Translations under genes and position numbers: made by a program
Notes under the pieces: model-generated
The model's database searches: none
What the model was told of the DNA's origin: nothing
What the model saw: only the letters and a program-made list of their open reading frames with translations
Part shown: positions 17,455-64,000 of the stretch, piece by piece
Layout: every line of letters begins with the position of its first letter
How positions within the stretch are numbered: the first letter of the stretch is position 1
Assembly: GCA_030068145.1 (NCBI GenBank)
Contig: JAPJBO010000152.1
Span: 186,001 to 250,000, forward strand
DNA from: Diplonema papillatum
Taxonomy: Eukaryota > Euglenozoa > Diplonemea > Diplonemida > Diplonemidae
Length of the DNA: 64,000 nt
Direction of reading: 5' to 3'

Positions 17455-17940
17455 AGAGGATCGTGCTCTCTGACACCGCCATCTCCAACTCGCAGGAAGG
17501 TCAGTTCCGCTGAGAAGCACTGCGCAGGATTACTTTTGCCAACTCGCAGTGGCGCTGTGCGCGGTGATCAGGATGGTCTCGGAACACGCTTCGATGAGTT
17601 CCACAGCGTCTGGGTCAGCTTTAAATTCGGGGTTTTCATTGCGGTAAGGGTCTTTGAGTCTGCTGAGCAGTGGACGACGCTCTGCTGGTTTAGGCAGCTG
17701 TTGAGCACACGGATTCGGTCGAGGTCCTGTCTACCCCGTCTGCTTTGTACCTGACTACGGAAACAGAATACCAACTAATGCTCAGACGTGCCTCTGCCAA
17801 GTACTCAGCTGTTGCATTGACGTTTACGCGGGTATCCTTCGGGGACCAACTGGCAGTTTGTTCTGTCGGAAGACAGGCTTTCTCTGCAGACGGAAGTTGT
17901 TTTGTTGCACTCGCTTCAGCTTTGTGTCGTGTCGTGAGAT
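17455..17940 (-). pseudogene. Kinesin 3'-end echo, oldest copy
   Basis: Strongly diverged copy of the 3' UTR and last coding part of the adjacent kinesin gene. Alignable landmarks are GAGAAGCACTGCGCAGGAT, the GATGAGTTC stretch, GAGCAGTGGACGACGCTCTGC, AGGCAGCTGTTG and CACACGGATTCGGTCGAGGTCCTG. It lies farthest from the gene and is the most changed. No usable frame. Confidence 0.65.
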
Positions 17941-18528
17941 CGTACTCTCAAAAGCACCGCCACCTCAAAACGACGAGAAGGCTGCTTCGTCGCTGAGAAA
18001 CCTGCACAGGATCACTCTCGTCAGCGCACAGTGGTGTTGTGCCATCGCGGGTGATCCCGAATGGGTTTGGAACAGGCGGCTTCGATGAGTTCTGGGGGGC
18101 AGCTTGGAGTTCAGCTTCTTCATCGCGATGAAGTTTTTGAGCTGCCTCGATTCATCCGCCAAGCGGTGGACGACGCCTTGCAGGTTCAGGCAGTTGTTGT
18201 GGACGCGGATCACAAGGTCCTGCATCCGCTTTGAGCAGGATGTCCCGCCGCGTCCGGGAGATCGTTCTCTCCAGCACAGCCACCCGCTGCTGTTACGGGG
18301 CCACCAGTTTTTCGACGTCAACACCCACTCCACCGCCACCACCGCCGCCGACGCCCGGGTCTTTCGAGATTGTCGCGTCGCCCAAGCTGGCGCCCGGCAG
18401 CCTCCGGCGGCGGTGGGTGGCGCGGCGTTCGCCGTCCTCGCCCATGCCCTTGATGCTGACCGACGCCGCGTGTCTTTGATGGCGGGAGCCTCGCGATGGA
18501 GGGAGCAGGCCCTGCGCGGCAGATGGTA
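17941..18528 (-). pseudogene. Kinesin 3'-end echo, younger copy
   Basis: A clear copy of about 18530-19200, that is, the kinesin 3' UTR plus the last roughly 200 codons, in the same orientation. Identity is high (for example AAGCGGTGGACGACGCCTTGC and CAGGTTCAGGCAGTTGTTG), but it has internal losses and frame changes: the LTSPTPAAAELI segment is missing, and the coding relation to SIKGMGEDGERRAT survives only in pieces. It stops near the point equivalent to about 19200. This is a tandem partial duplication rather than a second gene. Confidence 0.85.
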
Positions 18529-18606
18529 GTTTCAAACACCGCCACCTCAAAACGACGAGAAGCGCTGCTTCGCCGCTGAGAAGCACTGTCTATAGGATCA
18601 CTCTCG

Positions 18607-21324
18607 TCAGCGCACAGTGGTGTTGTGCCATCGCGGGTGATCCCGGATGGGTTTGGAACAGGCGGCTTCGATGAGTTCGGCGGCGGCTGGCGTCGGACTC
18701 GTGAGGTTGGGGGGCAGCTTGGAGTTCAGCTTCTTCATCGCGATGAAGTCTTTGAGCTGCCTCGACTCGTCCGCCAAGCGGTGGACGACGCCTTGCAGGT
18801 TCAGGCAGTTGTTGTGGACGCGGATCACAAGGTCCTGCATCCGCTTCAGCTTCGTGTCGAGCAGGATGTCCCGCTGCGAGTCCCGTTCGGAGATCGTCCT
18901 CTCCAACACAGCCACCCGCTGCTGATACGGCGCCACCAGCTTTTCGACGTCAACACCCACTCCACCGCCACCACCGCCACCACTACCACCGGCGCCCATC
19001 CCCGGGTCACTCGAGATTGTCGTGTCGCCCGAGCTGGCGCCCGGCAGCCTCCGGCGGCGGGTGGCGCGGCGTTCGCCGTCCTCGCCCATGCCCTTGATGC
19101 TGACCGGCGCCGCGTCGGCGAAGCCGCTGTCTTCGACGGCGGCGGAGCCTTCGCGGAGCGAGCTGTTCGTGCTCGCGATGGAGGAGAGCAGGCCCTTCGG
19201 ATCCGCGTGCCGGATGTTCTGCAGCTGCTTCAGCTGCGACGTCGGCGGCGCGGCCGCCGGTTCCTCGCGCATGGCGGCCGCCGGCGCGTGCGCCTGCCGC
19301 GACGTGACGAAGGAGCGCACCGCGTTCTCTACGGCGATCACCTCCCGCTCCTTCACCAGCGCGACCTGCCCCTGAAGACTCGGCAATTCACGCTTCCGCG
19401 CCGGCTCGTCGTGCAGCCCCGGGTTGACCAGCGTGCCCAGCTGCAGGAGCCGGCGGAGATACCCGACCTGCTGCCGCAGGTCTGCGGTCACCTTCGCGCC
19501 GTCCGCCTCGCGGTCCGACAGCTCGGCGCGCGTTTTTTCCGCGGCCCGCGCGCTGTCGGCCTTCAGCTTCCCGACTTCCTCGAGCAGCGCCGCGTGTTTC
19601 GCGCGCAGATCGGAGACCTCTTTCCGACCCTCCGCCGCCTCCCGCTGCAGATCCGCGTCGGTGGCTTGCCGGGCGCGCGAGATGTCGTCGTCCCGGGTCC
19701 GAGCGAGTTCGCGGGCGGTGTGTTCTGAGGCTTGCAGCTTGTCTTGGAGGGCGAAGCATTCAGCCTTCAGCGCGTCGTTCGCCGCGTCAGCGGCTTTCTT
19801 GTCCTTCCGCAGCTTGTCGATCTTCCGGAGCTTCTGGTCGTTGTCCTCCTCGAGCTCCCGGCAGAGGGTTTCGAGAGTGTCGTGCGACTCCTGAAGGGAA
19901 CGGGCGTCCTCCTCCGCTTCCTCGATGCGCTGTTGGAGGATCTGCAGGCGCGCGTTGCGCTTCGAGGCGTCGGCGGCTGATTCCCGGTCGCCGGCGGACT
20001 GCAGGTCGCCGTGTAGGGAGGACACCTGGGCTTGGAGGTGCGCGTTGCTCTCTTGGAGCGCGGCCACCATTTTTTCGGCCTGCGCGTCGCCACGCGGCCC
20101 GGCGAGGGCGACTTTCTTCATGCGGAGCTGCAGGGCCCAGACTTTGAAGGTCTTCGCGACGAGCGAGAGCTTCGCGGACTTGAGCTCGGCTTCGAGTTTT
20201 CGGGCGCGGGTCTTGTCGTCGGACACCTCGTTGCGGTGCACGACGTTCCGGACGCGCGACGCGCGCGAAGCGAATTGGAGGGTGGATCTCGTCTCCTCGA
20301 GGTGGACTTCCGCTTCGGTGATGGCCGCGACGACGCACGTCAGCGAGTTCCCCCCGAGGGACGTTTCGAGCATGCGGGTGAGCAGCGAATCGCGGTACGG
20401 CACGTGCTTGCCCTTCGAGTCGGGGTCGGCGAGCTTCTCGATGACGGTGCCGAGGAACAGCAGCGACTTGTTGATGTTCGCTCCCTCCGCCTTCCGCTGG
20501 CCGGTGGCGTTCGTCTTCGAAATCCGCTCCGACCCGGCGAGGTCGACCAGATGCAGCGCGGACACTTTGATGCTGTCACCCTCCTGCGCCAAGGGCAGCC
20601 CCGTCCTTGCGTCGACGGACGCCGACAGAGCCGCCGACGAGCCCGCCACCTCCGAATCGACCTTCTCCCAGCACTCCACGTCGAGCCGCACGATGCAATG
20701 CGAGCGCGACGACCGCTCGTTCATCGAGTGCGTCGCACTCACCCTACGCGCCTCGGCTTCCTTGTGGATGTAATCGATGAACTGGCGTGTGGACGTCACG
20801 GGCCGTCGGATCGCACCGTCCACGTACACTCCCCGCAGCGGTGATTTTACGATGCGCAGATTCGCCGGCGCCGCCGCAGTCGGCGGCGCGAGGAGGTCGC
20901 GAAGCTGCTCGTTGTATATCTCGAGCATCGAGCACTTGATGACGTACTCTTTGCCGTCGCCCTGCTGCTCGTTGATCGTCGTGAACATGTCTTGGACTGC
21001 GAGCGGGACGATGCCTGGGGACGAGCCTTCTCCGAGCATTGTGTATGACTTTCCGCTGGATGTCTGGCCGTACGCGAAAACCGTGGCGTTGAAGCCGGAC
21101 ATGCAGCTCTGTACAATAGGCCCGGCGATGCATCGGTCGTATATGTCGCGCGTGGTCCGTTCGGCGGTGAAGACGTGGTCGAAGCTGAAGCGGATGTCCG
21201 GGTTGCCACGCTCGACGAGGGTGTTGCTCTCGATGCTCCACGCGCTGCCGCCCTCGCCGATCTCCGGCCGGAGCGGGCGCACCCGCACCGCGACGCACAC
21301 CGCTTGGTGCCGCTTCTCCGCCAT
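18607..21324 (-). CDS. Kinesin heavy chain, N-terminal motor (kinesin-7-like)
   Basis: Intronless frame of 905 residues. I start it at the ATG at 21324 (MAEKRHQAVCVAVRVRPLRP), where the motor homology begins; the upstream in-frame extension has no homology. Motor domain residues about 8-365: P-loop GQTSSGKS (86-93), switch I NERSSRSH (202-209), switch II DLAGSE (261-266), and HVPYRDSLLTRML with NSLTCVVAAI near 308-335. Residues about 370-660 are a long coiled coil, followed by a low-complexity tail with a glycine run and a second helix (KMQDLVIRVHNNCLNLQGVV-type). The compact motor with little neck and the CENP-E-like P-loop context suggest kinesin-7, but subfamily is uncertain. It would move cargo or chromosomes along microtubules using ATP. 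Partial copies of its 3' end lie downstream and of its 5' end upstream. Confidence 0.93.
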   Translation of the reverse strand: MAEKRHQAVCVAVRVRPLRPEIGEGGSAWSIESNTLVERGNPDIRFSFDHVFTAERTTRDIYDRCIAGPIVQSCMSGFNATVFAYGQTSSGKSYTMLGEGSSPGIVPLAVQDMFTTINEQQGDGKEYVIKCSMLEIYNEQLRDLLAPPTAAAPANLRIVKSPLRGVYVDGAIRRPVTSTRQFIDYIHKEAEARRVSATHSMNERSSRSHCIVRLDVECWEKVDSEVAGSSAALSASVDARTGLPLAQEGDSIKVSALHLVDLAGSERISKTNATGQRKAEGANINKSLLFLGTVIEKLADPDSKGKHVPYRDSLLTRMLETSLGGNSLTCVVAAITEAEVHLEETRSTLQFASRASRVRNVVHRNEVSDDKTRARKLEAELKSAKLSLVAKTFKVWALQLRMKKVALAGPRGDAQAEKMVAALQESNAHLQAQVSSLHGDLQSAGDRESAADASKRNARLQILQQRIEEAEEDARSLQESHDTLETLCRELEEDNDQKLRKIDKLRKDKKAADAANDALKAECFALQDKLQASEHTARELARTRDDDISRARQATDADLQREAAEGRKEVSDLRAKHAALLEEVGKLKADSARAAEKTRAELSDREADGAKVTADLRQQVGYLRRLLQLGTLVNPGLHDEPARKRELPSLQGQVALVKEREVIAVENAVRSFVTSRQAHAPAAAMREEPAAAPPTSQLKQLQNIRHADPKGLLSSIASTNSSLREGSAAVEDSGFADAAPVSIKGMGEDGERRATRRRRLPGASSGDTTISSDPGMGAGGSGGGGGGGVGVDVEKLVAPYQQRVAVLERTISERDSQRDILLDTKLKRMQDLVIRVHNNCLNLQGVVHRLADESRQLKDFIAMKKLNSKLPPNLTSPTPAAAELIEAACSKPIRDHPRWHNTTVR

Positions 21325-21397
21325 CTTTGCCGCGACTGCGCGGCCCGCCACACACCCTCTCCCCCCCTCCCGCCCAGCGCCCCCCTGGTGGGTTTCG

Positions 21398-21440
21398 AGT
21401 GAAAATTCGCTTGAGGATCGATCCGGGGTTTCAAAGTCAT
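21398..21440 (-). other. Dispersed 45-bp motif in the kinesin upstream region
   Basis: On the minus strand the core reads about TTTAAAACCCCGG, gap, TCAAGCGAACTTTCACTC. Relatives: 22040-22085, 22146-22196, 25422-25472 (inside the PPR intron) and 57541-57593, all in the same orientation. It lies 75-115 bases before the kinesin ATG. Whether it is a repeat remnant or a signal is unknown. Confidence 0.5.
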
Positions 21441-21539
21441 GGTTTGGTGTGAGTAGCAGTGCATGTCCGTGTCGTTGTGACGCGGTGCCTCCCTTCGCGA
21501 AAGTACGACCACGCTGTGCGTGTGTGTTCAATCTCACTT

Positions 21540-21592
21540 GTGGGTAATCCCTGCGCGGAATTATAGCCCATTGTGCGTGCGTGTGTGTTTGT
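21540..21592 (-). mobile_element. Tiny LINE 3'-end insertion inside CA-rich sequence
   Basis: On minus, TGGGCTATAATTCCGC, then AGGGATTACCCA and GTGAGATT closely match the last 45 bases of the LINE at 49175-52063 (TGGGCTAGACTCCGC, AGGGGTTACCCA, TGAGATTT). Both sides here are CA-rich (ACACACACGCAC). It fits an extremely 5'-truncated copy of the same LINE family. Confidence 0.55.
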
Positions 21593-21724
21593 TGCCCGTT
21601 GCCGACGATTCGACATTTTTATGGCGCGCTCTCGTTTCCGATTGTGACTATATTTAGCCATATCCGGGGTTTCGTATGCCTGACTCCGGGTTCACATTCC
21701 GAATGCCGCATTCGCTAGGACTGG

Positions 21725-22110
21725 ATGCCTGGCCGTACGCGAAAACCGTGGCGTTGAAGCCGGACACGCTCTGTACAATAGGCCCGGCGATGAATCGGTC
21801 GTATATGTCGCGCGTGGTCCGCTCCGGCGGTGAAGACGTGGTCGAAGCTGAAGCGGATGTCCGGGTTGCCGCGCTCGACGAGGTGTTGCTCTCGATGCTC
21901 CACGCGCTGGCCGGAGCGGGCGCACCCGCATCGCAACGCACACCGCCTGGTGCCGCTTCTCTGCCGTTTCTTTTGCCGCGACTGCGCGGCCCGCCACACA
22001 CCCTCTCCCCCCCTCCCGCCCAGCGCCCCCCTGGTGGGTTTCGAGTGAAAATCCGCTTGAGGATCCGAGGTTTTAAAGCTCTGGTTTGGTGCGAGTAGCA
22101 GTGCATGCGC
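21725..22110 (-). pseudogene. Kinesin 5'-end echo
   Basis: Copy of about 21063-21440: 5' leader, start region and about the first 85 codons of the kinesin, in the same orientation, just upstream of the gene. The start codon position is changed (ACG), a segment equivalent to PEIGEGG is missing and small shifts break the frame. It ends abruptly just inside the P-loop region (YGQ). The leader, including the 45-bp motif, is duplicated too, so this is genomic tandem duplication and not retroposition. Confidence 0.88.
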
Positions 22111-23062
22111 GCGTGTTTGTCTTCGTTGCCGACGATTCAACATTTCAGAGTGCAAGTTCGCTTAGGGATCCGGGGTTTTATAGTCTCCGGGTGACCATTG
22201 TCGTAAAGGTTCCTTTAAGGTATAGTATGTTAGTGTGCGTACAAAGTACGTGTGCTTGTGCGTGTATTAAGGAAAAACATCAAAACCCAAACCGCAGCCA
22301 CAAAAAACAGCCCGACTAGGACACAACCACACAGGGAACCCAAAAACAATCGGAACCCCCAGGAAAGTTTGATCCACACCGGTGTGGGTTCATAAAATGC
22401 CCGCAAAATGTGTCACCAAACCTCCGGGACCCTGAAAGGACCCTGAAAGACGTCGACTTAGTTTAACAGCGCGCTCTCGTTTCCGATTGTGATTAGTCAT
22501 ATCCAGGGGTTTTGCGACCGACACCGGGGTCATATTCCGAATGCCATTCGTCAGGAAATTGTGTGCGTCCGGCGACAGTCACTCAGCAAGTTGCGTGTGA
22601 CGGCATTGTTGTGATTGATTGCTTGCGGAACCTTTGATGTGGACGCTGAGCTTCTTCGTCAATTCTTCGCCCGCTTTGGTGCCATTTTTGTGGGTATTGG
22701 AAACCCCACGTTTCTTCCGCCCTTCCGTGTCTTCCATCTAGTCCTCGCCCATTGTGGGTGTCGATCCACGACCCATTTGCACAAGCAGAGGCACCAGCTA
22801 TCACAATCGCCAATTCCCATCCTAGAACCGGTAGATAAAAGGATGAGCAAAGCAGAAGAGAAAGTCGGGGCGTCAAGCCCGCAACGTCGTCAGTCCGCAA
22901 GGGGCAGCATCATTTGCGTCACCGGTACAAAGGTGCGCCTTTAGGTTGAAGAACCAGAAGGATCACGTCCCACAACCCGGCGAGACCTGTTCATGAAGGC
23001 GGTGAAGAAGCGGTAGAGTCCAGGTCGAAATACCGGTGAAATCTTGAACACTGCGCGGGAAA
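22111..23062. other. Intergenic, no gene recognised
   Basis: Contains another copy of the 45-bp motif (22146-22196). The rest has no recognisable coding region; the short frames have no conserved features. Confidence 0.5.
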
Positions 23063-23263
23063 ATGCCCGTTTTTGCTGTTTCCTATTCGGTGTTTCTTGG
23101 GGCACTGGCGTCCTTGACACGTTTAATACACGGGGCTCAAGAGCATGCAGTCGTTGGCAACGGCGCGTTCGCGTATGCATGTTCCGCCACAGGACAGTCT
23201 TTCTGTCGACCCATCGAGTGCGGCGCTTTTTTTGATGGGAGACAACAGGCGTGTTCGCGCTGA
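23063..23263 (+). CDS. Possible small secreted protein
   Basis: A 66-codon frame with ATG start: MPVFAVSYSVFLGALASLTR could serve as a signal peptide, and four cysteines follow. It is short, on the opposite strand to the confident genes, and has no recognised family, so it may be chance. Confidence 0.2.
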   Translation: MPVFAVSYSVFLGALASLTRLIHGAQEHAVVGNGAFAYACSATGQSFCRPIECGAFFDGRQQACSR

Positions 23264-23529
23264 CATTTTGAATTTTAAATAGGCGTTAGTTGAGCTCGGG
23301 AGCTTGCTTCATTGAACCCTGGCGTAATACCCTGATACTAAGCGTGCTACTTTTGGTAAGCAGGACTGGCGACGCGGGATGAACCGAGAGCTAACTTAAG
23401 GTGTCCGAGTGATCGCTCATCAGATCCCACAAAGGGTGTTTCATCTTAACAGCAGGACGGTGGCCATGGAAGTCGACTAGTGGCTGAGAGCTCGACTATT
23501 TTCCTACAAACATGTAAAGACAGAAGTAC

Positions 23530-23880
23530 TTCGTGTTGCGTGCAGGGGGCAGGCCGGTTTTGGAGGAGGAAGTGCTTTCCGAAGTTTCGCCGCAGGGGAC
23601 TTCAAGTGGAAACCCGCGGTGTCCTACACGTTGTGGGAGTGGTTGGGGAAATGGACGGACGACAGCAGCGGCTTGGCTGGAGCCGGCGGGAGGGCAGCGG
23701 CGGCGGGTGCGACGGTGGCCGGCGGCGGGATGCCGGCGGACCGTGCGAGGAGGGCGTTCATGTCTTCAGCGGCGCGGGTTGTCCGTGGCAAAACGACGGC
23801 TTGCGAACAGCGGCAAGAGAATCGGATGCTCGTGCATGCGCGGCTTGCGGCTCTTTAGCCTTCACAATACATTGTGTGGG
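23530..23880 (-). pseudogene. PPR gene 3'-end echo, outer copy
   Basis: Copy of the PPR gene's last coding part and 3' flank, equivalent to about 24330-24600, in the same orientation. Landmarks: GGAGGAAGTGCTTTCCGAAGT, GCCGCAGGGGACTTCAAGTG, GTGGTTGGGGAAATGGACGG and GGCGGCGGGATGCCGGCGG. It is broken by small shifts. Confidence 0.85.
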
Positions 23881-24266
23881 CAACCCGCCAAATTGCTGTG
23901 TTTTGTACGCCCGCCGGATGGCGGTTTTTACAGCAGACAACAGGCGCGCACGCGCCGCCTTTTGGCTGAGGGGCGGTTTTGAAGGAGGAAGTGTTTTCCG
24001 AAGTTTCGCCGCAGGGGACTTCAAGTGGAGAACCACGGCATCCTGCAGGTTGTGGGAGTGGTCGGGGAAGAGGACGGTCGACAGCAGCGGCTTGGCGCGG
24101 AAGGTCGCACGGTCCGCCGGCTACCGTAGCACCCGCCGCCGCTGCCGCGCGGGTTGTCCGTGGCAAAACGACGGCTTGCGAACGGCGGCAAGAGAATCGG
24201 ATGCTCGTGCATACGCGGCTTGCGGCTCTTTAGCCTTCACAATAGGTTGTGTGGGCAACCGGTGTG
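23881..24266 (-). pseudogene. PPR gene 3'-end echo, inner copy
   Basis: Second copy of the same end, from the CGCCCGCCGGATGGCGG stop region through TTTTGAAGGAGGAAGTGTT and GTCGACAGCAGCGGCTTGGC. The part equivalent to SLLARSAGIPPPATVAPAAA is shortened. It lies directly beside the gene's own stop; the tandem unit is about 380-420 bp. Confidence 0.85.
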
Positions 24267-24645
24267 CTACGCCCGCCGGATGGCGGTTATTACAGCAGAC
24301 AACAGGCGCGCACGCGCCGCCTTTTGGCTGAGGGGCGGTTTTGGAGGAGGAAGTGTTCTCCGAAGTTTCGCCGCCGGGGACTTCAAGTGGAGAACCGCGG
24401 CGTCCTGCACGTTGTGGGAGTGGTTGGGGAAGAGAACGGACGACAGCAGCGGCTTGGCTGGAGCTGGCGGGGCGGCAGCGGCGGCGGGCGCGACGGTGGC
24501 CGGCGGCGGGATGCCGGCGGACCGTGCGAGGAGGGAGTTCACGTCTTCCGCGCCGCGCGGGTTGCCAGTGGCGAACGACGGCTTGCGCACCGAGGCGAGG
24601 AGCCGCGCCTCCCGCGGCGCCACATCCGGCGCGCGGGTGGCGCCC

Positions 24646-24677
<32 letters not shown>

Positions 24678-26946
24678 ACCAGGAGCAGCAGCAGCAGCCT
24701 CCGCCAGGTCGGGTATGCCGCGGCCGGCGTCCCTCGCTGCTGCTGCTGCCGCCGCAGCAGCACCAGGAGCAGCAGCAGCAGCAGCGTCCGCCATGTCGGG
24801 TATGCCGCGGCCGGTGTCCCTCGGTATCGGGCCCAGCGGCCGCACGGCGGCGTGGCACGCCGCGACGTTCCTCCGGAAGGCGTCCGACGCGCCGATGCCC
24901 TGCTTCGCCTGCTTCTCCTCGAGGGCCGCCAAGCGCCGCCGCAGGCCGGCCGCGGCGTACACGCCCGACAGCCCGTCGAAGAGGAACCTTTCGGTCGCGA
25001 ACCCCGACGCCTCCGCCTGCGAAAACTGGAGCTCCGCGACTGCCACCAGTTCCCCGCCGTCGGCGCTCCCCGGGGCAACCGCACCTACGGCCTTGGCGAT
25101 GGCTTCGAAAACCAGCGTGTAGGTCATGAGGTCTGGCGTCGTGCCCAGCCGGCCCATGCGTTCGGCCGCCGCGCGCACCGCCGGCCAGTCGGCCGCCTCC
25201 TTCAGCACCCGGAGCAGGCAGTTCCACAGCGCGCTCGAGTTCACGCCGTCGTCGAGCAGGGCCTGGTGGACTTCCTTGGCCTGTTCCACTTCGCCTTGCC
25301 ACCGGCAGGTCACCAGCAGCTTCATGCGGGACTCCGCGTTCGCCTTGATGCCGTGATGCACCTGAGCGCGTTGGTTTGTTGTTGTCGAGCAGACACAGGG
25401 GACAGATCTTGCCTTATTTTAGAGTTAAAGTTCGCTTGAGATCCCGGGGTTTTAGGGTCTCCGTGTGACCGTTCATGAATGGGTTCTCTTAGAGCAAGAA
25501 AGGGCTATATTGGTTACGGGTTGTATATTTGGTGCACGCTTTCGTTATGGGTTATGGCTAGCCATGTCCGGGACTGTTTGTGACCGACACCAAGTACATT
25601 CCTTCGTGGATTTTGTTGCTGGTGTGCTGACAACGCATTGTTGGCGCTACGAATTAGTCGTTGGCAACACACAACGCAAAACTACCCGAAGCAGGCGAGT
25701 TCCGCTTGCGCAGGAACGAAGATTTTTGGTTTGGCAGGTCGGAATGTTCAAAGTCTCCTCTTGACCGTGGGCGCTTTTTTTGAGCACCAACAAACACTTG
25801 CAGGTGCCCTGGTGAGTGAGGCGTGTGTGCAAGCCGCCCCATGCAGGTGAGTTCTGCGGTGCAGATGCAGTATTGGAAAAATTTGAGGGCCAACCAGTTC
25901 GGGTACCGACTCATCGTGGAAGTATTTTCTCCTTGTATTCTGCGGTCAGCTTTCGAGCCTAAACGAGCATCCGACGACTTTTTCTGGATTCTCAGAGCGT
26001 TATGGGTGAGCCGGTCCGTCCCTATCTCTTGAAACTGCATCGAAGTGCCTGCCGATGCTTATCACAGTGAATCACGGTCCACCACGGTCTATCAGGTCCA
26101 TCCCTAGTCCCTAGAGCTGCATCGAATTGCCTATTCTTCGGTCTATCACGGTCTATCAAGAGGGGATGGTCCGGCTCAGTTATGGGGCAGTTGGTATCGG
26201 GTTTTGGCAAAGCGGCACACCTCGAACGCCCGGACAACAGCTGCCCCCGCGCGGTGCGAGCGGCAGTTCGAGAGGAGCCCGCGCAGCGTGACTTGGTCGG
26301 GGGGGCATCCGTCCTGCTTGAGCGCTTCGTACACTCTGCGCGCGAGCGTCTCGACGGGGTGGCCGCCGACGGCGGCGGCCGGACCGGCGGCGACCGCGAG
26401 GCAGTAGAGGTAGCTGTTGTACGCTGCCAGGCGCGGCGGGAAGCCGGCGTTCCGCATGGCTCTCCGCGTCCGGACCCACCCGGGGAGGTCTCCCCTCGCT
26501 GCGTGGCAGTGGAGGAGCCATTCGTAGCTGGCGGCGGTGGGCATGAGGCCGGCGGCCTTCATCTCGGCGAGAAGCTGCATGCTGCGGTCGATCTGCCCGA
26601 ACCAGCTCAAAAACTGCAGCGCGACCTCATAGGTCAGCGGACCGACCGAATTCCCCCACCGGCGGAGCCTCGCGAGGTCGAGCACAACCCGGTACTGCAG
26701 GTACTGCTTCTGCGACGTGTGCAGCTGCCGGTGCCCCCGGCCCCCTGCCTTCTTCAGGTACGGCCGCACGAAGCAGCCGTGCACAAACCGCGCGGTCCCT
26801 TCGTCGTCGAGCCCCCGGGGCAGCTCGTCGTCGACTTCCTCCCGCGGCAGCTTCACCGTGCCCGCCGCGGCCCACCCGCTGACGCCTTCGCCGGCGGCCC
26901 GCCGCCCCGCGAACACATTCGCGTACGACCGGTCGATCCGAACCAT
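24267..26946 (-). CDS. Pentatricopeptide-repeat protein, two exons
   Basis: Exon 1 is 26946-26221 (ATG, MVRIDRSYANVFAG) and exon 2 is 25361-24267. The intron 26220-25362 (859 bp) begins GTGTGC and ends CTCAG, phase 0, joining RAFE to VHHGIKAN. The product is 606 residues. PPR-like helix pairs: YEVALQFLSWFGQIDRSMQL, ASYEWLLHCHAARGDLPGWV, AYNSYLYCLAVAAGP, VTLRGLLSNCRSHRAGAAVV, RMKLLVTCRWQGEVEQAKEV, ALWNCLLRVLKEAADWPAVR, MTYTLVFEAIAKAVG. The C-terminal third is alanine/proline-rich low complexity encoded by CAG/GCT-type triplet runs. PPR proteins bind organellar RNA in sequence-specific fashion; mitochondrial targeting is plausible but not shown. Two decayed copies of the gene's 3' end follow it, and the intron holds a MITE. 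Exon joining is inferred from splice sites and repeat continuity. Confidence 0.82.
26008..26178. mobile_element. 171-bp MITE in the PPR intron, with 8-bp target duplication
   Basis: Terminal inverted repeats TGAGCCGGTCCGTCCC and (reverse) TGAGCCGGACCATCCC. The target duplication GTTATGGG is seen at 26000-26007 and 26179-26186. A second copy is inverted at about 56942-57121. An 8-bp duplication fits hAT or P-type transposases. Confidence 0.88.
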
Positions 26947-27086
26947 CGTCGACCCAGCATCCTTTCCAGGCGCGTCCCCACCCCCGCAAACCCTTCCTCG
27001 GGCCCCTTGGAATGATAGTTAGTTTCTTCCGAAGCAGGGTCTCACGGAGTGCCCCCGATTGACAAGCCTACGGGAAAAGTCTTAGT

Positions 27087-27425: not shown

Positions 27426-27910
27426 ACTTAAGCGTTATTTGTGGATTAGAAGGTCGGTATTTCAAAGTCTCCGGTAGAGGCTTGGGTTGAGAGGGTTGGG
27501 AAAAGTGAGAGAGTGCTGCTCGTTTCGGGTGATGTGTCACTCCGTTGTGAAATCTTGTGAAGTCCTCCAACGCGATGGTGGTGGTGGCATAGACCTGGGG
27601 ACACAACCGTGGGGAAGGCATCAGGATATCTTGACTTGGGGACTCCGGGAAGAAACTCCTCTGCTCACGCCCACTTTGATTCCAAGAATAGGTCGAGGAA
27701 GCGCTTTTTCAATGCTTCCGATCATTCGCCTCACCATCTTGTTCCACCTGTATTATGTTGAGACACAGACATGACCCTGTGACTCCGAACGTATCCTGCG
27801 AAAACATGTTCAAAAATGGCAGGAATTTGATACGCAGGGTTCAGTAGCTATCACTTTCCTGAAGCAGGATCGAAAATGGGAGGGAGAGAAAAAGCAACAT
27901 GGCGTGACGC
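27426..27910. other. No gene recognised
   Basis: About 27450-27475 shares GGTATTTCAAAGTCTCCGG with 37055-37075. Nothing else is identifiable. Confidence 0.4.
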
Positions 27911-28160
27911 CGGAGTGAACCAGCTACTGCCTCCAACCATTAGTATTGCTTTACCTGGCAAAACTCCGGTGTGAACCAGCTACTGCCTCCAACCATTAGC
28001 ATTGCTTTACCTGGCAAAACTCCGGTGTGAACCAGCTACTGCCTCCAACCATTAGTATTGCTTTACCTGGCAAAACTCCGGTGTGAACCAGCTACTGCCT
28101 CCAGCCATTAGTATTGCTTTACCTGGCAAAACTCCGGTGTGAACCGGCTACTCCAAGCGT
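27911..28160. repeat. 56-bp minisatellite
   Basis: Units start GTGAACCAGCTACTGCCTCC at 27915, 27971, 28027 and 28083, with a shortened one at 28139. The full units are almost identical. Confidence 0.92.
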
Positions 28161-30233: not shown

Positions 30234-30460
30234 TTTGTATAAGCACCTCAGCTGCCAGTTGCGAAATCTCAAAGGCGCCATCCGGCGCCACCTAGCGAAA
30301 GGTTGGCAAAGTGTACGACTCATCACATGCCGAGGACTCCCCACTGTCGAACAATTAGTCCAAATCCCAAAGGAGGCAAATGTGCTGTAGCCCAAACACA
30401 GATAAACTGAGTTTAGTGGCGGGCGTAAGCGTTCGACGAAAAAGACCCATGTTGTAGTTG
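30234..30460 (-). repeat. A-tailed dispersed repeat, minus copy with internal insertion
   Basis: The repeat's two ends (TTTTGTATAAGCACCT and TAGTGGCGGGCGTAAGCGTT) are about 90 bp farther apart than in other copies. The extra segment lies between about 30280 and 30370. Confidence 0.6.
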
Positions 30461-31395
30461 TATTGCTTTCTCCCCCTCCAGCCTCCGTCGAAATAAGCAC
30501 AAGGCAGTCTGTCTCGAGTATGCGTTGCGAACGCAAAAACAGCAGCAAACCGACCATTGGCGGCAGCTTCACGGCCATGCACAACAGCCATTTGCGAGAA
30601 TTTCGGTTTTGTGCTTCCACGACTCCGTATGGTATGGGCGTCAAGATTGGTGTCTATCTTTCGTGTTCTCTTCTTGACCCTGGTCATCGGCGCTCATGCT
30701 CCGTACTCCGGGGCTAGAAGCGACAGTTCTTACTCGTATTGCTGTTCGGAATGCGCTGGTCCGACCAGATGAGCTGTTCTGAACCGCTCATCTGCAACCA
30801 AATGTCACAACAATTCTTCTTTTCGAAGCGGTTGTAGAGGTTGCCTAATTGGTACCCCCGAAACCCCCGTTATGATTCGCGAAACGGTGGGGGCTACATG
30901 TTATAAGTGTTCTGGACTTTCTTTTGCCGTCAGTTAGTCACCAGCTGCATATGGAGTATCGAAATGTAGCCGTACTCCGTATTGCGTTGTTCCCGCGTAG
31001 TTTGTGCGGAGTTCTTGCGTACTTCGTTACTTCGGTTTTCGGGGGTACCACCAATCGATAATAAAAGAAGTTTCATTTTTCTTTTCACTCGCTGTAACAG
31101 CTAGTGTGTGAAAATTGAAGACCTTCTTTTTTATTATTCGTTGATAACTAAGAATCGTTATCCTTTCTCTTTTTTCTTTTTTTTTTTTTTTAGATGGGAC
31201 ACTTTGATACTGCCGCACCGCAGGTCAGAGTGCTGGGCGGGTGGGGGAAGGGAGGACGGAGGTTAGTACAGCGAGAGAATGGGCGGCAAAGAACTGCGGA
31301 AGCTTGTTTGAACAAAACTCGCCGAGGGGGGAGGAAAGGTGCTTGGTATAGACATGTGCTCGCCACCGCGCGGTTGCCGGCTGCGTCGTGTTTCT
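30461..31395. other. No gene recognised
   Basis: Nothing recognisable apart from a poly-T/poly-C stretch near 31160-31195. Confidence 0.4.
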
Positions 31396-43255: not shown

Positions 43256-43375
43256 ACGTGCGGCGCCTGCTGCCTTTGTCGCAAAACCTGTTCCAAGGTA
43301 CCGACCCACGCCGCCTCTATCTCGAGGTCTTCCCGGCTGAACTCCTCCGCGAAGTAGCAGTCGATCGCCTCCGCC
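43256..43375 (-). pseudogene. RING-gene 5'-region echo
   Basis: Copy of about 42622-42763 (codons 33-80: the SREDLEIEAA region to the CCCH finger), in the same orientation and upstream of the gene. Landmarks: GCCGCCTCTATCTCGAGGTC, CTGAACTCCTCCGCGAAGTA, GCAGTCGATCGCCTCCGCCG. The CCCH linker part is shortened. It is flanked by unrelated repeats. Confidence 0.88.
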
Positions 43376-52063: not shown

Positions 52064-52083
52064 TGTGTGTGTGTGTGTGTGTG
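52064..52083. repeat. (GT)n tract at the LINE 5' side
   Basis: Ten GT repeats directly abutting the truncated 5' end of the LINE. Confidence 0.95.
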
Positions 52084-52833
52084 GTGGACGACGGGTTCAA
52101 AACGTTGATGCCATGGCGCCATTTTTTTCTTTTTGTGCGGGACAAGTCTCCGGGCAGCAGTTGTCGGTGCCAAGTGGACGTTTGTTTCTTACCTCGGTAC
52201 GCTCGAAATGAAAACTGCAGAAAAGAAACGGAACGTGGGTGGGGAGTCGTCGTAATTGGGCTTCATTATCGGGGTGGGTACGATGATCTGCGTTTGGAAT
52301 TGTACATACTGCCTCTTTTATTCGATGTGCACCCAGCTGATAGCAGGGGATTGCAAGAACGTTTAAGCCACGGACACAGAAGGCGGACCATCATCAGCGC
52401 GGAACCTGAGTGTCTGCAGACAGGACAGCGCTGCGAGTCTGGTTTGTCAGGCTGCTGACAGCAAGAACGTGCTTGGAATGGGTATGTGCTCAACACCGCA
52501 CTGGTCCGTGTTTCGGTCCTTTAAGCCACGGCGCGGAACCTGAGTGTCTGCAGACAGCACAGCGGTGTGAGTCTGGCTTGTCAGGCGGCTGATAGCAGAG
52601 GGGGAGGTTAACAACGTTACACAAATTGTAGCTATAGTACTCGCCAGAGCAGGAATCATCGATCGGGTGCATTATTTGGAAGAGCCGTACCAAACAATCG
52701 TGCACCACAAAAAAGTCGAAACTCGAAAGCTGGCCATTTCTTTCGACCCACAACGGGGTCACACGCAGTTGGGAGTTCTTGCACTGCGCGTACTTCTAGA
52801 CGGGTTCTTGTTTTGAAGAAGTCGACGTTTTTA
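52084..52833. other. Dispersed repeats, no gene
   Basis: Two copies of the CTGCAGACAGGACAGCG repeat at 52362-52455 and 52522-52595. No gene seen. Confidence 0.5.
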
Positions 52834-53550: not shown

Positions 53551-53639
53551 AGAAACAGGCGAATGAATTTGTGGTCTAAGACTGGTTCGTATTGCACTTT
53601 TAAGCTTTCCCTGATTGACCGGCAGGTTAGGGAGGGGGG

Positions 53640-53752
53640 AAAATGTTACTTGGGTTTGAAGAGCGCGTGGTGCTTGCACCTTTGAGGCCAGGTTATTTAA
53701 CCGCGGATTTAGTGAAGGATTGTTCAGGAAACGGTCGCGAGCGAAACCCGAC
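53640..53752 (+). repeat. Structured 115-bp dispersed repeat, copy 2
   Basis: Same family as 15363-15480; full length, with ACCTTTG instead of ACCACTG in the first hairpin. Confidence 0.8.
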
Positions 53753-53831
53753 CAGGTAACGACCATTTCACTGTCTTCTTGGGTTTGTGATGCGAACATC
53801 ACGAGGTGCTGTCCGAAGACACCGCCCACGT

Positions 53832-55231: not shown

Positions 55232-55632
55232 GCTCTTGTTAAGGATCAGCCACTTTGGCCGGATGGCCGGATAAACCAGACCCCCCCCCCTCCCCTCTAC
55301 AGCGCAGTTGCCTTGGAGGCTGGGTGGTCAAATTCTCTAAGGTGAAATGGTCAAAATTCCCTGCCGAAAGTGGGCCCACAAAAAATTTTCAAAGTGTGGT
55401 TTTTGGGGTATTTTGTGTTGAACGCTTACGCCCGCCACTAAACCCAGGGTTACCTGTGTTTCGTGTGGGCACATTTACCTCCTTTGATCTATCGCAACTG
55501 GCAGTCTCCTCAAGCATTTCCTACAAAGCAGGTGCTTATACAAAAAAAAATTTTTTTTCTGACCACCCACCGTGGTGATCACCTTAGAGAGTGACAGGTA
55601 GCGTCCCCCCTCCACAGTGAAAATAGCCTGTA
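55232..55632. mobile_element. MITE-like element, copy 2, split by an A-tailed repeat
   Basis: Inverted relative of 29041-29352. It is interrupted at about 55415-55550 by an A-tailed dispersed repeat inserted at the element's central TATTT/A-run. Outer ends abut long G-runs (55207-55230 and 55638-55655). Confidence 0.8.
55415..55550 (+). repeat. A-tailed dispersed repeat nested in the MITE-like element
   Basis: Begins GTGTTGAACGCTTACGCCCG, ends GGTGCTTATACAAAAAAAAA. It is younger than its host element. Confidence 0.82.
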
Positions 55633-55655
55633 TATAGGGGGGGGGGGGGGGGGGC

Positions 55656-57121: not shown

Positions 57122-58344
57122 GGGGAGGGGGTTGCAAGAACGTGCTTGGAATAGCCATGTGCTCAACCACTGCACGGGTCCCATCTGCACTGCGGACCAT
57201 CATCAGCACGGAACCTGAGTGTCTGCAGACAGGACATGGTTTATCAGGCGGCTGCTCGTAGCTCGTCAGCCGTTGTGACCGGTTTTGACGGGTGCAATGC
57301 GAGTGTAATGTACCCTGCGACGACGAACAATAATCCGCCTACGTTTCCGGGTCTATTTGGCACCGTTCTCTTCATCCGAGAAAAGGGCGAGCAAAAAGTC
57401 GTCGGAAAATATTTGCTACGTAGAGTAGACCAGCGGGAAATTTTCAGTGCGGGGCCCCAGGGGGGCAATCTTGCTTCTTTGATGTGTTGTCGGCGGGTTC
57501 CGATCACGCGCCCCCGATTCACACGAGCCGGCTTCTTTTTAGAGTGAAAGTTCGCTTGAAACTCCGGGGTTTTAAAGTCTCCGGGCGACCTTCGTCGTGA
57601 TGGGAAGATATCCTTTGTGCTCTGAGTGTCGTAAGAGTGGTGGTTACACGAGGCATTTTTGTGATGCGTTGCGCTGGGGGCTCTTCTTGGATTGGTTGCT
57701 ACGCGAATGCCCGGCGGTTTCAGGTATTCAATACTTTCCAGCGTAATGCTGAAAGCTTCACTGACTCGCGACCCTCTTCACGACTTTTGCTTCCTTCGGC
57801 TAGCTGCGGGTTCGGGCGCAGACTTGCTGCGAAGAGAACGAGTTTCCCTCTCGAGCTCTGTTGGCACAGCCAATCGGCAGCAATGACGGGGTATACATAT
57901 GGCGGGGACGTCCAGGTGTCAGTGCAAGCTGATATGACTTGCGCCCATGTTTCTACCAGGGGGCATTCCTCACTCAAGGAGAACTTGTTGCGTTTCTAGG
58001 ACGTTTGTTCGTGCGACCCAGGCGAAGTTGAAGTGTGTTCCACACCAACTTGTATTTGTATTGCTCATCTCTCCCCCTCTCTATCTCAAGCCGGTCCCAT
58101 CCCTATTCCCCGGAACTGCCAGCTGGCTGTGCCAGAGAGAGGTAGATGTGCACCGTGGGCCCCGGCGGGCACGATTTTGTTTCAGCCACATGCAATGGGT
58201 GAGACTGAACCGCCCAAGCAGGATCTTCTGATCATGATCATTTGCCAATTTGCCGCGCGGAACCACGTCCAGGATTTGGGCCCAGGGTAGTGCGGTCAAC
58301 GAAAAACTCTCGTTTCCCTCTCGCGGTGTACGATTTCCGCGCGA
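57122..58344. other. Repeats, no gene
   Basis: 57186-57262 is a CTGCAGACAGGAC repeat copy; 57541-57593 is a 45-bp motif copy. No confident coding region was seen. Confidence 0.45.
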
Positions 58345-60755
58345 TCAGGCGGTTAAAGGGTGCTCAAGAGGGGACTTGTTCCTGGTGTTGCCCCCCCACC
58401 CGCGCTTGCCCGGGGGCGGTTTGAGGTCGACGTTGTACTGGTTTTGGATCGAGCCCGCGCCGTAAGGGTCGTCAAGGGAGTCGAGCTTGCTGAAGTTCGG
58501 CCGGTCCGTGGCCATAGAGTTGTACTTGTCCAGCGAGTTTTGCAGGTCGGACGGGAGGTAGTACGGCTTGTCCTTGCCGTTGTTGATGTCGAGGTCATGG
58601 CAAAAGGAAAGCAGCACCGTGTCGATGCATACCGAGAACACGATCGCGAAAACGCTCGAAATCACGTACGCGAGCAACGCGACGCAAATCAGCGGTATGA
58701 TCGTATCCTCAGGCTCCCTATCCTTCCCGGCCATGTCTGCGTAGATGATGAGCCAATACGCTGTGCACGACGTTGCGGCCATTATGAGGATCTTGCCGAA
58801 GAAAATGACCCATTCCGCAATGAAATTGACGGCGATCACGGAGAAGGCGTGGCTCAGCAGCAGAAAGAGCGCGCGGCGGGCGCCGTTGCAGAAGTTGTCG
58901 GAGCACAGGGCCGTCATGATGAACGCGTTACGGCTGATGAACTTGATGAGCCTCTCGAAGCACGCGAGGCAGCACTGCGCGCACTTGATGAGGTAGTCGA
59001 CCGCGGGGCTGTCCGAGATCTTCCGCAGCCGGCTCTCGAACTTCGCCAGCAAGTACTGCAGGAATTGCACGACCGCGATGATGAAGCTCCCGAGCATCAG
59101 CGTCCCCAAGTGGTACCGAATCGTCCACCAAACCCCGACGACCACCCCCGCGTCCGGCTTTTTATCGTCCCCGGGCACGCTCCAGTACCAGAACACTGCG
59201 CAGAACGCCAGCACCAAGAATCCGATCGCCTTCAACAGCGCCGCCGACCACAAGAACATGAACACGTTGTACAGGTGCGCGTACGTGGCCCACTGCTCGC
59301 TGTTGAGCACGTCGACGAGGACGTCAGTTGCGGGTCCTAGATGGCCATCTGGGTCTGTTGCGTTGAGGTAGGCTTGCATGGTTTCTTCCTTGATGGACCC
59401 GGTAGTTTCGATGTACAAACCGACCAGCACGTGGAACGCGAAAACGGGGATGAGCAGAAGAACGATGACAGGGGGCACGATGGCCATGGTCGGGATCGAC
59501 AGCGGGATGCGGCTGGCCTCTTCGATAGTGTCGCAAGCGATCGCGATGTTCTTGCAGAAGAAGAGCAGCAAGCAGCAGTAGATGACGAACCAGAGCCCCG
59601 TGCCGATGGTGAGGATGAGCCAGACGGTCTCCATTTCGTCGGACGCCGAGCGGCGCCAGTTGCTGGCGCAGATGTAGGCTACGACGGCGGACGCGACGAA
59701 CAGCAGCAGAAGGGTGAGGTACACACACGGCTTCACCGCCCTCCGCAGCACGAACAGCCACAGGAACGAGATCACGGTGCAGGCCACAGCGGAAATGATG
59801 ATCACGGTCACCGATTCCTCAAGCTCGCCGACTGCCGCTCTAAGGGTCCCGGCGACGTCAAAAAGCTCAGCGATGTTGCCTGTGTTGGGTGACGGGGTTG
59901 GCGTTTACATGCGTGGAGATCCCTCCCCCCCCCCCACGTAGTTCGGGCGTTGCTAAGTTCTGGTGGTAACCAAGGTTCGGGCGATGCTAAGTTCTGATGA
60001 CGCAAAGTTGAGTGCTAAGTTCGTGTAGTGGCAGTACTCGGGGGGAAAATGTTTCTTGGGTTTGAAGAGCGCGTGGTGCTTGCACCACTGAGGCCAGGTT
60101 ATATAACCGCGGATTTAGTGAAGGATTGTTCAGGAAACGCCCCCCCCCCCCCCCTCGGACCCCGTGGCAACACACCTGTCAGCTGCGACGGGTCGACGGG
60201 GATGCAGCGGTGGACGACTTCTTTCATGTCGAATCTGACGTCGAATCCGACCTCGACTCCGTTATAGTAGTCAGTTCCGTCGTACCACGTGACGTGGTCA
60301 TCCGAAGAAGGACACTTCGCGACGCAAAGCCCGAGATTCAGCGTGTCCTTGATGAGGTCTTCGCAGGTCGGCCCATCGGGCGCTACGAGGCGCTTGGCGC
60401 AGGTTTCCGCCGAAGGCAGCGGGTACACGATTTTGTTGAGATCGCTCCACGCCAGCTTAGTGCCGTTTGAATCCACCATGTCAACTTCGAAGGGCAAGCT
60501 GTCGCCGTGGTGCCCGCAGAGGTTCCCCTCGCGGTCGATGCCGAACAGCAGGCGCTGCGGGTCACCCTCCTTCAGCACGACCGTCGTCAGGAACATCATC
60601 GCGAACCAAGCCACCGCGTACAGCAGAAACCCGCAGAGGTCGGTGCACCCCCTGTCGGCATAGTACCCGACCTCGTTCGCCGGCGGAAACCGCTTCGGCG
60701 CGTACCGGGCGGCCAGCCGCTGCTGCTCCGCCTCCTGCTCTTTGCTCGCGCCCAT
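58345..60755 (-). CDS. Choline transporter-like protein (CTL/SLC44 family), two exons
   Basis: Exon 1 is 60755-60176 (ATG, MGASKEQEAEQQRLAARYAP) and exon 2 is 59879-58345. The intron 60175-59880 (296 bp) starts GTGTGT and ends CACAG, joining LTG to NIAELFD. The product is 704 residues, the usual CTL size. Family marks: RGCTDLCGFLLYAVAWFAMM (first membrane segment with the conserved CTD), GDPQRLLFGIDREGNLCG, a large cysteine-bearing extracellular loop (residues about 62-225), then about nine more membrane segments. The region near IDTVLLSFCHDLDINNGKDK then PYYLPSDLQ is the typical CTL C-terminal signature. It would move choline or related amines across the plasma or organelle membrane. The intron carries a dispersed repeat, and part of the 5' end is duplicated upstream. 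Confidence 0.92.
60046..60139 (+). repeat. Structured 115-bp dispersed repeat, copy 3, inside the CTL intron
   Basis: Same family as 15363-15480, ending in a C-run. It makes up about a third of the 296-bp intron, on the strand opposite to the gene. Loose GTTCGGGCGATGCTAAGTTC repeats fill much of the rest (59942-60025). Confidence 0.82.
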
Positions 60756-61027: not shown

Positions 61028-61110
61028 GAAGAACAGCCGGCTGCTGCTCTGTCTCCTTCTCTTTGCGCACGCCCACAGTTCTCGTCTGACTCGAAAGCGG
61101 GCGGAGCTCA
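61028..61110 (-). pseudogene. CTL-gene 5'-end echo
   Basis: Similar to 60712-60795, that is, the first codons and leader of the CTL gene, same orientation, about 310 bp upstream. Landmarks: GCTGCTGCTC, CTCCT / CTCCTT, GCTCTTTGC / TCTCTTTGC, AGTTCTCGTCTGAC versus GGTTCTCGTCTACC, and GGCGGAGC. The ATG equivalent is lost. More diverged than the other echoes. Confidence 0.65.
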
Positions 61111-62339
61111 GTGGTGTGTTGAGGAGGTGACCCGCGGCATCGTCAGCGAAGGGTAAGTGTCGGCGTCTTCGGACAACGTCCTTGCTCCCGCTGGCCTGAC
61201 GTGGTTAAACGCTCGCAGGCTCATGTCAGACACAGCGATCTTCTACTTCCCGTCTTGAAACGCGGACCAAGGAGTCTAACACGTGTGCGAGGCTTAGGGT
61301 GTCAAACCCACAAGCCGCACTGAAAGGGTGATGTGCCAATCCTTGAGGACGCAGCACCGCCCGATCCTGATTTACTGGAAAGGGATTTGAGGTTGAGTAC
61401 ACTTGTTGGGACCCGAAAGATGGTGAACTATGCCTGGATAGGACGAACAGCCACATCCCGGTTGACCCACCATGAAACCATGATGTGAAACGTGTTGCTG
61501 CTGCACGTACTGGGAAGGGCTGAATATCTGTCGTGTGTGTCTTACGGCGTGCCGGCCAAGAACGTGCCTTCTGTGGGCGCATGGCACCCTCCATCCCACA
61601 ACCTCATAGAAGCGACACGTGTGGGCTTTCGGAACATTTTCCGTGTTTGTGGCTCGACCGTAGACCGAGTGTCCGGGACGAGATTCTCTTTTCGCTGCGA
61701 CCCAACGCTCCCGGGGCACTACGTGATGCTGTGAAAAGGTACTGGTTGCGAAGGAATGGTTGTGATCTACGGGTAAGGGCGCGCGACGCTTTCCGCAGAC
61801 GTGAAAACGCCTGGCGGTGGCGGCGTCCGGCGCTTGCATATTTGCGCTGCGTGCTGTTGAAGGGTGACTGATGCGATCAGTCGCTCTGGGGTCGGCGGTT
61901 TGCCAAGTGACGCTCGGTACTGTCTCCTCGGGCTTCGCGGACGTAAACTAGTCAATCCCCTCGTGATAGACCAGCTCTACGAGAACGGCAATGATGCACC
62001 CTCGTAGTTGGAAGTTAGAGTGCAGAACATCTGTAGCGATGGCCTGCACTAGTGATCAGGTGACAACCTCTTCGATCGTACTGTGCCGTGCCACATCTGA
62101 TAGACAGCGGGGTGAAAGGTCTGAGGTAGATACGCCTGGAAGGCGAAGGTCAAACGGCCGAGGACAGCGCCAATGCAGGAATGCTCGCCGCCTGTGCGTC
62201 ACCCGATCCCTCGGCGCCGCCGAGCCCCGCGCCGCATTCCCCGTTCACATCCACGCCAGCCTGGACAAGCCGTACGATGATGACATCCGGGAGCCCGCGG
62301 CCGTTTGTTGAACTATTTCGTCCGCGCGTGGAGGCTCAG
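61111..62339. other. No gene recognised
   Basis: Only short frames without domain features. Confidence 0.4.
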
Positions 62340-62640
62340 GCGCTAGGCGCAGTCTGTGTCTTAAAGCTTCACGTTCAAGTCGGCGCAGATCTCGGTCAAG
62401 AACCCCGCCAGACGCGACGTGGCGCGCGCCTTGTCGGCTTCCAGCTTCTTGCACAGTTTCGCGATCTTCGTTTTCCACCCGTCTGCCTCCTCGTCACGTT
62501 CGCGCTTGAGCGCCTGCTGTGCGGGCGCAGCTGCCCAAGGTCCGTTCCAGCTCCTTCACGCGCTCCTCCAGCACGGCCGCCGCGTGACCCGTTCGTTGTA
62601 GGCGTCTTTGACTTTGCTGGGGACGTTGCGTGTGTCGGAA
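62340..62640 (-). pseudogene. Coiled-coil gene 3' unit, oldest echo
   Basis: Shortened copy (about 376 bp spacing instead of 484) of the 3' coding unit to the right. It keeps AGCTTCACGTTCAAGTCG, GCAGATCTCGGTCAAGAAC and GCTCCAGCACGGCCGCC but has lost about 108 bp in the middle. Most diverged and farthest from the gene. Confidence 0.82.
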
Positions 62641-63124
62641 AACTGCTGAGTCTCAAGTCGCCAAGCTGGCAACGGCAAATGGCGCGGCCATATCTCTTCT
62701 GCGAGTGGAGGCTCAACCAGCACCAGGCACGCTCTGCGCCTTGAGCTTCACGGTTCAAGTCGTCGCAGATCTCGGTCAAGAACGCCAGAGACGAGATGTA
62801 GCGCGCCTTGTCGGCCTCCAGCTTCTTGCACGTTTTCGCGAGCTCTGCGTTCTCCTCCGCCACCTCGTCGCGTTCGCACTTGAGCGTCTGCGCCTGCTGC
62901 GCGGCCTCTTCGTACGCCCGGCGCCACTCGTTGGCGGAGACCAACGCTTTGCCGACTCTCGCTTTGCACGCCTGCTCATTCTGCGCCAGGGCCTGCGCTG
63001 CCCGCATGTCGCAGCTGCCCAAGGTCCGCTCCAGCTCCTTCACGCGCTACTCCAGCACGGCCGCTGCGGTGACCCGTTCGTTGTAGGCGTCTTTGACTTT
63101 GCTGGGGACGTTGCGTGTGTCGGA
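62641..63124 (-). pseudogene. Coiled-coil gene 3' unit, second echo
   Basis: A full 484-485-bp unit. One extra base near 62752 (CACGGTTC instead of CACGTTC) shifts the frame after TEICDDLN, so the normal ending KLKAQSVPGAG is lost. Otherwise close to the next units. Confidence 0.82.
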
Positions 63125-63608
63125 AAACGCCTGAGTCTCAAGTCGCCAAGCTGGCAACGGCAAATGGCGCGGCCGTATCTCGTCTGCGATTGGAGGCTCA
63201 ACCAGCACCAGGCACGCTCTGCGCCTTGAGCTTCACGTTCAAGTCGTCGCAGATCTCGGTCAAGAACGCCAGAGACGAGATGTAGCGCGCCTTGTCGGCC
63301 TCCAGCTTCTTGCACGTTTTCGCGAGCTCTGCGTTCTCTTCCGCCACCTCGTCGCGTTCGCACTTGAGCGTCTGCGCCTGCTGCGCGGCCTCTTCGTACG
63401 CCCGGCGCCACTCGTTGGCGGAGACCAACGCTTTGCCGACTCTCGCTTTGCACGCCTGCTCATTCTGCGCCAGGGCCTGCGCTGCCCGCATGTCGCAACT
63501 GCCCAAGGTCCGCTCCAGCTCCTTCACGCGCTCCTCCAGCACGGCCGCTGCGGTGACCCGTTCGTTGTAGGCGTCTTTGACTTTGCTGGGGACGTTGCGT
63601 GTGTCGGA
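63125..63608 (-). pseudogene. Coiled-coil gene 3' unit, third copy
   Basis: Near-identical to the next unit, with an open coding part ELERTLGSCDMRAAQALAQN to KLKAQSVPGAG stop (63198). Upstream of it, CGCAACGTCCCCAG/CAAAGTC looks like a 3' splice site, so each unit may be an intron end plus terminal exon. It could be an alternative last exon and not a pseudogene. Confidence 0.6.
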
Positions 63609-63681
63609 AAACGCCTGAGTCTCAAGTCGCCAAGCTGGCAACGGCAAATGGCGCGGCCGTATCTCGTCTGCGATTGGAGGC

Positions 63682-64000
63682 TCAACCAGCACCAGGCACG
63701 CTCTGCGCCTTGAGCTTCACGTTCAAGTCGTCGCAGATCTCGGTCAAGAACGCCAGAGACGAGATGTAGCGCGCCTTGTCGGCCTCCAGCTTCTTGCACG
63801 TTTTCGCGAGCTCTGCGTTCTCTTCCGCCACCTCGTCGCGTTCACGCTTGAGCGTCTGCGCCTGCTGCGCGGCCTCTTCGTACGCCCGGCGCCACTCGTT
63901 GGCGGAGACCAACGCTTTGCCGACTCTCGCTTTGCACGCCTGCTCATTCTGCGCCAGGGCCTGCGCTGCCCGCATGTCGCAGCTGCCCAAGGTCCGCTCC
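63682..64000 (-). CDS. Coiled-coil protein, C-terminal part; gene continues off the right edge
   Basis: The minus strand is open from the window edge to a stop at 63682. The visible 105 residues (ERTLGSCDMRAAQALAQNEQ, VGKALVSANEWRRAYEEAAQ, RERDEVAEENAELAKTCKKL, SSLAFLTEICDDLNVKLKAQ) form a strong heptad-type coiled coil ending SVPGAG. The same exon is repeated in tandem downstream at 484-bp spacing. The family cannot be named from this part. It follows the minus-strand direction of all other host genes here. Which of the tandem units is the real last exon is not decided by the sequence. Confidence 0.6.
   Translation of the reverse strand, partial: ERTLGSCDMRAAQALAQNEQACKARVGKALVSANEWRRAYEEAAQQAQTLKRERDEVAEENAELAKTCKKLEADKARYISSLAFLTEICDDLNVKLKAQSVPGAG

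Follow-up and report, generated by a model that had tools for sequence, protein, structure and literature searches.

Partial gene copies lie, in the same orientation, in all five reported gene neighbourhoods of the 64,000-nucleotide stretch of Diplonema papillatum DNA analysed here (hereafter the window), far above shuffled controls in self-BLASTN and local alignment. These copies, or echoes, are decaying fragments at the DNA level, and they most probably represent the remnants of ordinary short head-to-tail tandem duplications which chanced to span gene ends, through a process that is not gene-specific. In self-BLASTN, E-values ranged from about 1e-8 down to 0 for the copies of kinesin, PPR, RING and the coiled-coil gene, and each of the four complete genes displays at least one echo. 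The first-pass annotation had reported such copies beside five host genes: every locus was recovered by self-BLASTN and local alignment with shuffles, the exact borders of the units being off by tens of bases. Its proposal of a duplication at the DNA level is likewise sustained by the inclusion of UTR and flanking DNA, the common strand, the gapless head-to-tail junctions and the frameshifts in the copies.

General features of the window

The window is eukaryotic, with a [G + C] content of 54.9%, and its recognisable host genes (kinesin, PPR, RING-H2 and choline-transporter-like, CTL) are all encoded on the minus strand, in a one-directional arrangement. The kinesin gene (18607-21324) is an uninterrupted coding sequence (CDS) with its ATG at 21324 and its stop at 18607 (Pfam Kinesin, E=4e-95), and its motor domain is closest to CENP-E among solved structures (best phmmer match 1t5c). 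The PPR gene (24267-27018; PPR_2, E=4.3e-8) was delineated from its ORFs, the N-terminal exon ORF spanning 27018-26176 and the C-terminal exon, to which it would be joined, probably lying within the ORF 25418-24267. The RING-H2 CDS occupies 42210-42858 (zf-RING_2, E=3.2e-13), and the CTL gene (58345-60755; Choline_transpo, E=5.3e-71) extends from an ATG at 60755 to a stop at 58345, with a probable GT-AG intron at about 60175-59886, read from the sequence, between exon 1 and exon 2. This intron contains a dispersed repeat (60032-60139) with 96-97% identity to copies at 15355-15462 and 53633-53753, and that part of the intron is therefore recent. A coiled-coil gene fragment (62296-64000, minus strand) runs past the window end.

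The remaining sequence is rich in repeats. Reverse-transcriptase/RNase H-type ORFs were found at 6153-8477, 12773-14362 and 49230-52262, and satellites occupy much of the region from 4.4 to 15.4 kb. Among them, a 41-bp satellite forms long arrays at 8296-8756, 8758-11854 and 4473-5748, with a unit common to neighbouring arrays and a strand switch at about 8757; the many weak miRNA-family matches in satellites were put down to chance. At the window start (1-740), 237-bp tandem repeats (79 codons, in frame) within a cysteine-rich open frame truncated by the window edge probably correspond to a repeated protein domain. Another dispersed family, with members of up to ~150 bp, is present on both strands (17142-17296, 30362-30449, 41159-41306, 47659-47797, 48760-48876 and 55406-55550).

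A fragment of the 28S rRNA gene is located at 23251-23600 between kinesin and PPR, beside the PPR echoes, on the plus strand and thus opposite to the genes (LSU_rRNA_eukarya, E=1.5e-16; best-conserved part at ~23330-23480). It is absent at Rfam gathering scores and surfaced in a permissive and then a regional search, and its conserved stretch has no exact match among viral contigs. A dinoflagellate origin with spliced-leader relics was considered and rejected, as neither TTTTGGCTCAAG nor TTGGCTCAAG was matched.

Kinesin and PPR echoes

The kinesin gene is accompanied by copies of both its ends, all on the minus strand. At the 3' end, a parent unit (18472-19115) made of C-terminal coding sequence and ~135 bp of 3' flank aligns to 18471-17937. 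This latter copy, the young echo B (17937-18471), matches 19115-18521 with 95% identity over 530 aligned bases, contains 11 indels, including gaps of 29, 11 and 9 bp, and has a broken frame. A farther copy, echo A (17445-17729), shows 79% identity to both the gene and B; when the gene, A and B are compared, A is the one that differs at 71 of 90 sites and is therefore older than B. About 50 bp are left unmatched in the tandem arrangement of this end. At the 5' end, the parent unit (21056-21720), composed of ~400 bp upstream of the gene and ~270 bp of CDS, is directly abutted at 21720/21721, without any gap, by its echo (21721-22556). The near part of this echo (22120-21721) aligns to 21478-21056 with 95% identity over 395 bases and its far part (22556-22469) corresponds to 21720-21624, at the far end of the parent unit, the two parts of the echo being separated by a dispersed repeat (~22142-22204). 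This repeat of ~60 bp, which the kinesin leader also resembles in part of its sequence, recurs at 25416-25473, immediately upstream of the second ORF of the PPR gene, and at 57537-57598, near the CTL 3' flank.

In the PPR gene, the 3' parent unit (24193-24599, minus strand), comprising the terminal 333 bp of CDS, to the stop at 24267, and 74 bp of 3' flank, is followed by two copies on the same strand: U2 (23818-24192), which carries CDS and 3' flank with 92% identity to 24599-24193 and is also detected as a tandem repeat by TRF, and U1 (23552-23817), farther away and truncated, with 91% identity to 24599-24333. U2 is gapless against the parent and U1 abuts U2, so that no spare base is present at either junction (24193|24192 and 23818|23817).

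Coiled-coil array

The array at the window end (62296-64000, minus strand) consists of 484-bp units that hold the C-terminal ORF of the coiled-coil gene with its stop. Three units (64000-62549) are 98-99% identical to each other and are followed by a decayed distal unit (62524-62296) with 85% identity. The 3' units that had been attributed to this gene are thus confirmed as an array, whereas the intact gene, if it exists, is located outside the window.

RING and CTL remnants

The two remaining echoes are much shorter. The RING echo (43260-43376, minus strand), ~400 bp upstream of the ATG, aligns to 42763-42621 with 93% identity over 117 bases. Described initially as a copy of the 5' region of the gene, it is indeed an upstream copy on the same strand, but of an internal segment of the CDS, from about codon 32 on, rather than of the gene start. 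The CTL echo (61034-61107, minus strand) aligns to 60790-60714 with 89% identity over 73 bases and covers the 5' leader and the first codons, consistent with the 5' copy reported initially. It falls below the BLASTN cut-off, with a local alignment score of 84 against a best score of 21-26 for shuffles of its own parent region.

Both remnants are shorter than the offset that separates them from their parent segment (117 bp against 613-639 bp for RING, 73 bp against ~320 bp for CTL). The tandem origin that the first-pass annotation gave to all echoes thus holds for PPR and the kinesin 5' end through their gapless junctions, whereas for RING and CTL, whose remnants are too short for proof, it is only assumed. 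For these two, templated insertion of nearby coding DNA during break repair is a real though less likely possibility, which would account for fairly high identities (93% and 89%) being confined to short patches, the rest of the supposed unit having no similarity. Conversely, both copies lie on the strand and on the side that a tandem origin predicts, and the proven tandem units decay with many deletions, which could have erased the rest of the RING and CTL units.

Origin of the echoes and gene-end geometry

We propose that the echoes originate in head-to-tail tandem duplications of ~0.3-0.7 kb spanning a gene end, possibly through replication slippage, unequal exchange or break repair. Selection would keep the intact gene copy, while the extra unit, which contains only one end of the gene, 5' or 3', and its flank, would be free to decay through point changes, deletions and repeat insertions, the echoes themselves being presumably neutral. 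Repeated events at one boundary would generate arrays with outer copies that can be much older. Genes would only make the products of duplication recognisable for longer.

The rule that a 5' fragment always lies upstream and a 3' fragment downstream, described earlier as what short tandem duplications crossing gene boundaries leave, is observed and is dictated by geometry. When a head-to-tail duplication spans such a boundary, a 5' piece upstream or a 3' piece downstream is all that it can leave, and a duplication inside a gene usually breaks it and is therefore lost. Such regularity is thus expected and probably does not signal any special process.

Gene ends compared with intergenic DNA

Local direct duplications are common throughout the window. 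Outside satellites, 91 of 378 overlapping tiles have a direct repeat within 1.5 kb, as compared to 14 of 378 for inverted repeats, and intergenic examples include 43389-43808, 31379-31949, 47195-47475, 27910-28152 and 5749-6157. Direct repeats were present in 13 of 23 gene-end tiles and in 28 of 123 intergenic ones (Fisher p=0.002, on tiles that are non-independent). Counted on events, the excess at gene ends was ~2.7-fold (p 0.04-0.09, five events), the 8-11 intergenic events being judged by eye from merged regions. Since selection maintains one partner of a gene-end pair, namely the gene, such pairs should stay recognisable longer, and the excess is gone when a two-fold longer detectability, an assumption and not a measurement, is attributed to them (p 0.26-0.45). 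When the gene ends were shifted circularly along the window, the excess reached significance at 300 bp only (p 0.02-0.04, as compared to 0.07-0.26 at wider distances). The comparison of gene-end and intergenic copies that had been suggested as a check therefore yields, within the window, a modest excess which vanishes with two-fold detectability.

These results bear on the hypothesis of a gene-targeted process, such as breaks or replication stress at the trans-splicing/polyadenylation boundaries of polycistronic units, which would preferentially generate tandem duplications at gene ends. The ~2.7-fold excess and the occurrence of at least one echo at each of the four complete genes are in its favour. 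We nevertheless consider it unlikely, given the small number of events, their p-values under two-fold detectability, the plentiful intergenic tandem duplications and a circular-shift test that is significant at the narrowest distance only. A bolder extension, slightly more doubtful still, is that, in this lineage, short tandem duplication is both very frequent and targeted to the processing boundaries of polycistronic arrays, so that most genes would carry decaying end echoes, serving as a clock and as a continuing source of raw material for UTRs and exons. Of the genome-wide, gene-linked process initially envisaged, the genome-wide occurrence is backed by the passages of Valach et al. 2023 (PMC10161547) on similar structures, whereas specificity for genes is unsupported, similar direct duplications being common away from them. 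Duplications that span gene ends by chance remain our preferred explanation.

Decay of the copies

The echoes display frameshifting gaps, deletions and broken frames, and their differences from the parent are spread over all codon positions (5,4,10; 3,2,5; 8,7,11), with out-of-frame indels. The start codon is lost in the kinesin 5' echo (ATG to ACG) and in the CTL echo (ATG to GTG), and thus in each of the two 5' echoes that include it, at merely 5-11% overall divergence; selection against upstream ATGs is possibly involved, two cases being too few to tell. A RIP-like or methylation-driven mutation process was rejected, since no bias was detected (C>T/G>A changes per site of 4.0% at CpG and 4.5% at other C/G, with 4.5% for A/T transitions). 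Retroposed fragments were also dismissed, as the copies are always adjacent, on the same strand and ending at junctions with their parent. In the proven units, the duplicated sequence reaches as far as ~400 bp upstream of the kinesin ATG; the copies contain non-coding flank and are therefore not processed cDNA.

It is very unlikely that the copies are functional, as alternative 3' exons, UTR regulators or protein extensions. In the kinesin echo B, a frame of 188 codons has stayed open and a stretch of it matches the C-terminus of kinesin, but much of this frame is shifted relative to the gene. Differences at all codon positions, out-of-frame indels and lost start codons also argue against function, as does the absence of an equivalent array from mature mRNA in the example detailed by PMC10161547. 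The suggestion that echoes shape UTRs or make new exons thus finds no support, with copies that are broken and, in that published example, an array outside the mature mRNA. Still less probable is an assembly artefact (chimera or collapsed haplotypes), for which the single assembled sequence and the ending of the 484-bp array at 98-99% identity with the window could plead, since most echoes differ by 5-21% with many indels, far beyond sequencing error, and PacBio reads back such an array in the published genome (PMC10161547).

Comparison with known systems

In satellites and minisatellites, decay at the array edge makes the distal units the most diverged, while the inner units stay similar. The units described here differ from such arrays in containing a portion of a single-copy gene, the intact end of which is maintained by selection. 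They also resemble the partial gene duplicates of C. elegans, Drosophila and yeast (Katju 2012, PMC3449122), which arise from sub-gene-length duplications capturing a part of a gene and often decay; those surveys, however, dealt mainly with annotated or expressed pairs, whereas the copies in the window are adjacent, mostly shorter than 0.7 kb, and broken.

The closest counterpart comes from the same organism, for which the phenomenon is already published. The passages of Valach et al. 2023 (PMC10161547, Fig. 2) on "repeat-bounded gene structures" in Diplonema (Paradiplonema) papillatum describe genes of which part of the 5' UTR and CDS is tandemly repeated upstream, or whose 3' end is repeated into the 3' UTR, in the same orientation. 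Dozens of gene models are affected, in a genome that is rich in repeats and has its genes in one-directional clusters; in the example presented, supported by long (PacBio) reads, the gene has 13 copies, 12 of them with 71-96% identity and the most distal with 47%. According to the same source, ~3600 pieces of 28S rRNA are scattered in this genome. The one-directional gene clusters, GT-AG introns, retroelements and 28S pieces that it reports are all present in the window, none of these traits being exclusive to diplonemids.

The loci of the window, which these passages do not name, share several properties with the published structures. Flank and CDS are both included in the kinesin 5', kinesin 3', PPR 3' and CTL 5' copies, as compared to CDS only in the RING copy, and the head-to-tail arrangement is gapless at PPR and kinesin 5'. 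The distal copy is the most diverged in kinesin (95% then 79%) and in the coiled-coil array (98-99% then 85%), as in the published example, in contrast to the PPR copies which are about equal (92% and 91%). The number of copies is also different, with 12-13 in that example and mostly one or two at the loci of the window. The published figure of dozens of gene models may greatly understate how common echoes are. They are also a source of confusion in gene prediction and in read mapping, and counting the young ones would gauge the rate of short tandem duplication in understudied and very abundant protists. The present analysis adds exact junctions, a geometric account of the 5'/3' regularity and the detectability argument; it confirms a published oddity of a diplonemid genome on new genes and provides a simple reason for its regularity.
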